Below, piece after piece: positions 7,312 to 7,379 of a stretch of 26,431 nt of DNA. The stretch spans positions 1 to 26,431 of the IMG/VR virus record IMGVR_UViG_3300046001_005470. The stretch is one strand, 5' to 3'. The notes under the pieces were generated by a model. It saw only the letters and a list, made by a program, of their open reading frames with translations. It ran no database searches and was not told where the DNA came from. Both the position numbers and the translations under genes were made by a program. This DNA comes from a virus. Position 1 is the stretch's first letter. Each line of letters starts with the position of its first letter.

Positions 7312-7379
7312 CGCGGTGTCCGCCGCGCTGACCCCTGCATTATAACCTATCGGCTGTCCGCGTCAATAGGCTTTCAAAA
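7312..7379 (-). promoter_or_regulatory. Promoter/leader cassette P1 (sigma70-type)
   Basis: Minus strand: T-rich upstream DNA, -35 TTGACG (7361-7366), 16-base spacer, perfect -10 TATAAT (7339-7344). The dyad CCTAT/ATAGG (7346-7370) overlaps the -35 end and spacer. The leader holds the dyad CGCGG/CCGCG (7312-7327). Bases from -35 through the leader closely match P2 at 5220-5286, so the two promoters are probably co-regulated. It should drive the early block from the 82-residue gene down to 5325. Confidence 0.85.

Follow-up and report, generated by a model that had tools for sequence, protein, structure and literature searches.

The window, by which we mean the whole stretch of DNA that was analyzed, is a linear virus record of 26,431 bases with no attached host genome. 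A tyrosine integrase gene runs on the plus strand (8309–9166, start at 8309 by inspection), and divergent from it a leftward series of minus-strand genes begins with two small HTH genes, HTHb (7910–8128, 72 residues) and HTHa (7609–7872, 87 residues, or 81 from the likelier start at 7854). They are followed by a promoter cassette, termed proximal, by the gene for an 82-residue cysteine-rich protein (7040–7288, phrog_3633), and by a set of small early genes (5325–6974) that includes a pyrimidine-dimer DNA glycosylase homologue (5979–6440; Pfam PF03013, E 1e-19). A second, distal cassette precedes the gene for a 67-residue protein (4990–5193) that is conserved in many relatives, and the genes downstream of it (1–4903) encode a DUF932 protein (4022–4903), an SNF2 helicase (1932–3344), a DUF7307-like protein, and a primase-polymerase (1–600). 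Structural genes for capsid, prohead protease, and tape measure occupy the other side of the window. By this gene order, the proximal cassette stands at the head of an accessory early unit, beginning with the 82-residue protein, and the distal cassette at the head of a replication unit, beginning with the 67-residue protein. It is important to note that both HTH genes lie upstream of the proximal promoter and are distinct from the 82- and 67-residue genes that stand behind the two promoters.

Two further features of this region are conserved. The sequence TGATTGTTCGG recurs on the minus strand where genes of the early and replication region end, at 1469–1479, 4982–4992, 6664–6674, and 7032–7042 (four matches against 0.38 expected), and is also found in most related loci; its TGA provides the stop codon for the 67-residue gene (4990) and for the genes ending at 6672, 7040, and 1477. 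It is possible that it serves as a cassette boundary or a 3′-end element. Between HTHa and the proximal cassette lies a GC-rich noncoding stretch (7440–7608, minus strand) that is conserved in relatives and is also present in two contigs without a detected integrase; a structured RNA was considered at this position, and no covariation was found. In several relatives, the interval between HTHa and the proximal cassette encodes a small conserved protein (IHVNQHVIRRN...; L117:4288-4554, with further examples at the same place in L118, L120, L026, L147, and L162), which is absent from the window.

Both cassettes are on the minus strand, at 7370–7312 (proximal) and 5276–5220 (distal), and both are composed of an A/T-rich tract, a TTGACG-16-TATAAT/TACAAT promoter whose -35 box and spacer are overlain by a 25-bp dyad, and a leader hairpin. 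The proximal sigma70-type promoter (7339–7366) has TTGACG at 7366–7361 and TATAAT at 7344–7339, separated by a 16-nt spacer, and scored 11 of 12 matches in a promoter scan; the distal promoter (5245–5272), with TTGACG at 5272–5267, the same spacer length, and TACAAT at 5250–5245, scored 10 of 12. The hexamers of both are thus spaced within the 16–18 nt that defines sigma70 promoters. The A/T-rich tracts upstream of them (7371–7390 and 5277–5300, minus strand) are, judged by their sequence, probably UP-element-like. No other promoter-like sites were found within positions 1–13000 of the window, where shuffled sequence would be expected to yield 1.4, so the promoter match by itself lacks significance. 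Significance comes from the joint motif, CTATTGAC-N9-CGATAGG-N-TANAAT, which, allowing three mismatches at most, matched exactly twice, at the two cassettes, against a mean of 0.01 in 100 shuffles. The cassettes are 83% identical across about 86 nt (E 2e-19), and an Rfam scan of the window gave no match. These data bear out a reading made earlier from the sequence alone, which had described two near-identical promoter/leader cassettes at these places.

The dyad, referred to here as the operator, has the general form CCTATTGAC-N7-GCCGATAGG with a CCTAT...ATAGG core. It reads CCTATTGAC-GCGGACA-GCCGATAGG in the proximal cassette (7346–7370, minus strand) and CCTATTGAC-GCGGAAA-GCCGATAGG in the distal one (5252–5276, minus strand), each copy being 25 bp long and extending across both -35 box and spacer. 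Its symmetry is imperfect in the window (seven of nine positions) and nearer perfect in some relatives (eight of nine). Across 34 family sites, gathered by a pattern that favored the arms and left the 7-nt center free, dyad positions 2–5, 7–8, 19, and 21–23 are invariant, and among relatives the -35 box, operator, and -10 box keep a nearly fixed arrangement. The CIRCE operator of HrcA reads TTAGCACTC-N9-GAGTGCTAA, a sequence that the dyad does not match. A literature search with the operator core returned only unrelated papers among the matches listed.

The leader hairpin has the same sequence in both cassettes, CGCGG-CGGACA-CCGCG (7312–7327 and 5220–5235, minus strand). Over ten distinct versions of this 16-nt element, 48 of 50 stem pairs are kept, three of the five pairs having changed on either side of the stem, a degree of covariation equaled in none of 20,000 shuffles; single-sequence folds are consistent for most versions. 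The hairpin would probably stabilize or tune the mRNA 5′ end of both units.

The cassette recurs in about 20 uncultured phage contigs, usually with two cassettes per contig. Sites typically number two to four per contig (range two to five), every one in promoter orientation, and a reversed control pattern was found in none of 21 records. A motif scan of IMG/VR yielded 24 stretches, divergent contigs among them, and a scan for the dyad without any promoter letters yielded 22, of which 21 had also come up in the promoter-bearing scan; the remaining one (L144) almost duplicates the distal cassette of the window, with TACAAC at -10 and unchanged spacing. In four contigs the 82-residue protein is 90–91% identical, and all four keep both cassettes. 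Conservation of the blocks in relatives, on which the earlier reading depended, is therefore borne out. Single motif matches in four records (G018, G019, L145, and L148) were put aside as probable chance.

Wherever a family contig extends far enough, HTHa is found upstream of its first cassette, and this holds for contigs without HTHb and the integrase as well. When IMG/VR was searched with HTHa alone and no motif, all 18 contigs recovered carry the cassette. Fourteen were known from the operator scans, and the four new ones (L157, L160, L161, and L162) all have repeated cassettes, some with altered operators: CCTATTGCGTTTTTCTGCCGATACC in L157, CCTATTGACAGCCGATAAC in L160, an 8-nt gap in L161, and TCTATTGGACAGAAACCGCCGATAAGG twice in L162. 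No HTHa homologues were found in INPHARED or PLSDB (tblastn, E 1). Directly upstream of HTHa (7873–7909, minus strand) there is a half-site-like CTATTG/TATTGAC, also present in most relatives, a sequence hinting that HTHa may control itself.

The AlphaFold2 model of HTHa is a winged-helix domain with a mean pLDDT of 74 and a poorly modeled C-terminal tail. Its best structural matches include RacA, pSK1 Par, HiNmlR, BldC, GlnR/TnrA, and Pukovnik Xis, at modest scores (Z 6.7 for RacA, 5.8 for BldC, and 5.4 for Xis; best Foldseek E 0.011). Since Z values of 5–7 are modest, assignment of the predicted fold to the MerR/Xis type expresses a likelihood. A PDB sequence search with HTHa gave nothing convincing, and HTHa scores below the Pfam HTH_17 cut-off (17.7 bits against 27), whereas the excisionase-like HTHb exceeds it (36.8).

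Operators of one phage resemble each other even in their free 7-nt centers, by an excess that none of 5000 permutations reached. In 11 phages, proximal and distal centers agree at 70% of positions within a phage, compared to 31% for the same cassette position between phages. The leader flanks of the same 11 phages follow the opposite pattern, with 42% agreement within a phage and 63% by position between phages. Conversion of whole cassettes is argued against as the source of operator agreement, because it should have made the leaders alike too; selection by one shared factor explains the data better. The same comparison bears on a simpler interpretation, namely that a strong promoter has simply been duplicated, with the dyad arising as a by-product and without a regulator dedicated to it. 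Every element of a strong sigma70 promoter is indeed present. However, the dyad arms beyond the -35 and -10 boxes show the same degree of conservation as the boxes themselves (in the arm-favoring collection of sites), and operators agree within a phage where leaders do not, which makes plain duplication quite improbable.

The identity of the shared factor was addressed by comparing protein distances with operator distances over 15 phages. Mantel tests, which do not fully correct for phylogeny, gave correlations between HTHa and the operators of r 0.46 (p 0.0006, n=15) for the proximal site and r 0.53 (p 0.0002 to 0.0006 over two runs, n=15) for the distal site. For whole operators, correlations with HTHb, the integrase, a metallophosphoesterase, the SNF2 helicase, and the primase-polymerase were near zero; the primase-polymerase correlated weakly with the distal center only (r 0.28, p 0.016). 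On identical genome subsets, HTHa gave r 0.53 to 0.60 and the control gene a value near zero, and the HTH half of HTHa correlated with the operators at least as well as the remainder. When close HTHa relatives were dropped (n=11), the distal r fell to 0.24–0.30 (p 0.06–0.07). The excisionase-like HTHb and the integrase were rejected as regulators, as the divergence of neither tracks the operators. The conserved arms are invariant with HTHa, and part of the site may therefore have another reader.

Alternatively, phages might have borrowed a dyad whose reader is a host protein, such as a LexA-like SOS repressor. A compositionally different phage fragment (L008, GC 39%) lends this some weight: it carries the same dyad in four perfect operator-promoters and one degenerate one (L008:1371-3424), most of which precede a small gene of their own, and its leaders are without the hairpin. 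No HTHa gene was found within its 8.8 kb, so a host or other regulator may be involved, and one of its small genes has no relatives in IMG/VR. Against a host regulator stands a scan covering 84,980 species genomes of bacteria and archaea, a collection from which the host may be missing: the 46 matches, inspected individually, are mostly AT-rich single sites resembling chance, and none is a family prophage cassette or lysogen. Two Anaerolineae matches upstream of a short open frame look unrelated. A host protein would also leave unexplained why operator variation follows the HTHa of the phage itself, and we regard this origin as very unlikely.

Based on these comparisons, a simple model would suggest that HTHa is the putative common regulator of both operators, probably a repressor, switching both early units together; we hold this model with reasonable, though not strong, confidence. 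Each block would be a strong early promoter for host RNA polymerase with a built-in operator, the near-consensus hexamers and A/T-rich upstream tract allowing early firing by the host enzyme. As the -35 box and spacer of a near-consensus promoter both lie under the operator, HTHa bound there would, on geometry only, most likely block RNA polymerase. In this way the accessory early unit, from the 82-residue gene onward, would be shut off or timed by HTHa jointly with the replication unit of the 67-residue gene, DUF932, SNF2, and primase-polymerase genes.

MerR-type proteins can activate as well, and many do. Alternatively, HTHa could therefore bind both operators and activate early transcription in a MerR-like manner, as its predicted fold and the placement of the operator over the -35 box and spacer might suggest. 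Promoters activated by MerR proteins have a long spacer (19–20 nt) between -35 and -10, in contrast to the 16 nt of the cassettes, and hexamers as near to consensus as these (11/12 and 10/12) would seem to need no activator. In addition, HTHa, at 81 residues, has neither the effector domain nor the C-terminal dimer helix found in classical MerR regulators. Activation is thus considered unlikely, and repression is the preferred mode of action for HTHa.

The sequence-only reading had gone further in one respect, proposing that a single factor binds both dyads, that the 82- and 67-residue genes are switched together, and that this constitutes an immunity circuit. The first part is retained: operator agreement within a phage and co-divergence with HTHa make it most likely that both sites are seen by a single trans-acting factor, and joint switching of the two early units is accordingly probable. 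The immunity circuit is not established, given that the distal unit leads to replication genes and that contigs in which no integrase was detected keep HTHa and its operators. A role for HTHa as the lysogeny repressor would fit with the integrase and excisionase-like genes that adjoin it in the window and most relatives, and with the fact that no XRE/cI-type HTH_3 repressor was found in the family (of the 16 records searched, which are fragments, only the unrelated G018 has the domain). Yet HTHa and the operators are retained in all five contigs with no detected tyrosine integrase (G008, its near copy G020, G013, G016, and L157), the 84,980 species genomes contained no lysogen of the family, and because the records are fragmentary another repressor could lie beyond them. 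A serine recombinase (resolvase) was also sought in these contigs, and none was found; as the records are fragments, absence of the integrase is not proven. On balance, a dedicated immunity function appears doubtful. Lysogeny is possible for integrase-bearing members, the window included, and in these HTHa may also help to hold the two units off in the lysogen, in addition to its proposed role in early gene control.

More tentatively, the protein and the operators may constitute an orthogonal specificity pair, with the HTHa and the operator center at both promoters being particular to each phage lineage; the sequence comparisons make this conceivable, and we would put it below an even chance by a clear distance. 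If true, related phages present in the same cell would be insulated from each other's regulators. Pairs that repeatedly spread and became matched anew would then represent an arms race over early gene control at the level of modules, and might define co-infection groups. More generally, the analysis provides an uncultured phage family with a concrete, testable control circuit of one small protein, two operators, and the early and replication genes. The variation of HTHa and operators over about 15 phages supplies ready matched pairs for studying DNA choice by small MerR/Xis-type proteins, and the comparison used here, in which operators agree within a phage and leaders by position, offers a general route, requiring no host, to the proteins that regulate repeated promoters in phages.

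The predicted fold of HTHa resembles that of small MerR/Xis-type proteins such as RacA, BldC, and mycobacteriophage Pukovnik Xis, from which HTHa differs by an invariant C-terminal GNPxWIA motif and a basic tail. In its proposed action it is reminiscent of the Aca repressors, small phage HTH proteins that bind an inverted repeat in a near-consensus early core promoter and repress by excluding RNA polymerase (PMC9410906). The inverted repeat inside the core promoter is common to both systems; polymerase exclusion has been shown for Aca proteins and would be expected here. In contrast to Aca genes, the HTHa gene is located upstream of the proximal cassette and not within the operon driven by it, and for this reason HTHa is not classed as an Aca protein; it would moreover act on two units, and no anti-CRISPR gene is known here. 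Cluster O mycobacteriophages likewise combine a repeated palindrome with strong SigA-like promoters, their 17-bp palindromic repeats occurring in more than 30 copies per genome, most of them away from promoters (PMC4351075), whereas the present element occurs in two to five copies, inside promoters, and with a candidate regulator identified. The SAS/ESAS elements of Cluster K mycobacteriophages are also repeated near gene starts, and ESAS consists of a pair of 17-nt inverted repeats by the start codon (PMC12699233, PMC3203893). Their sequence differs from that of the cassettes, and while ESAS is positioned near the start codon, the operator described here is set within the -35/-10 region of the promoter.
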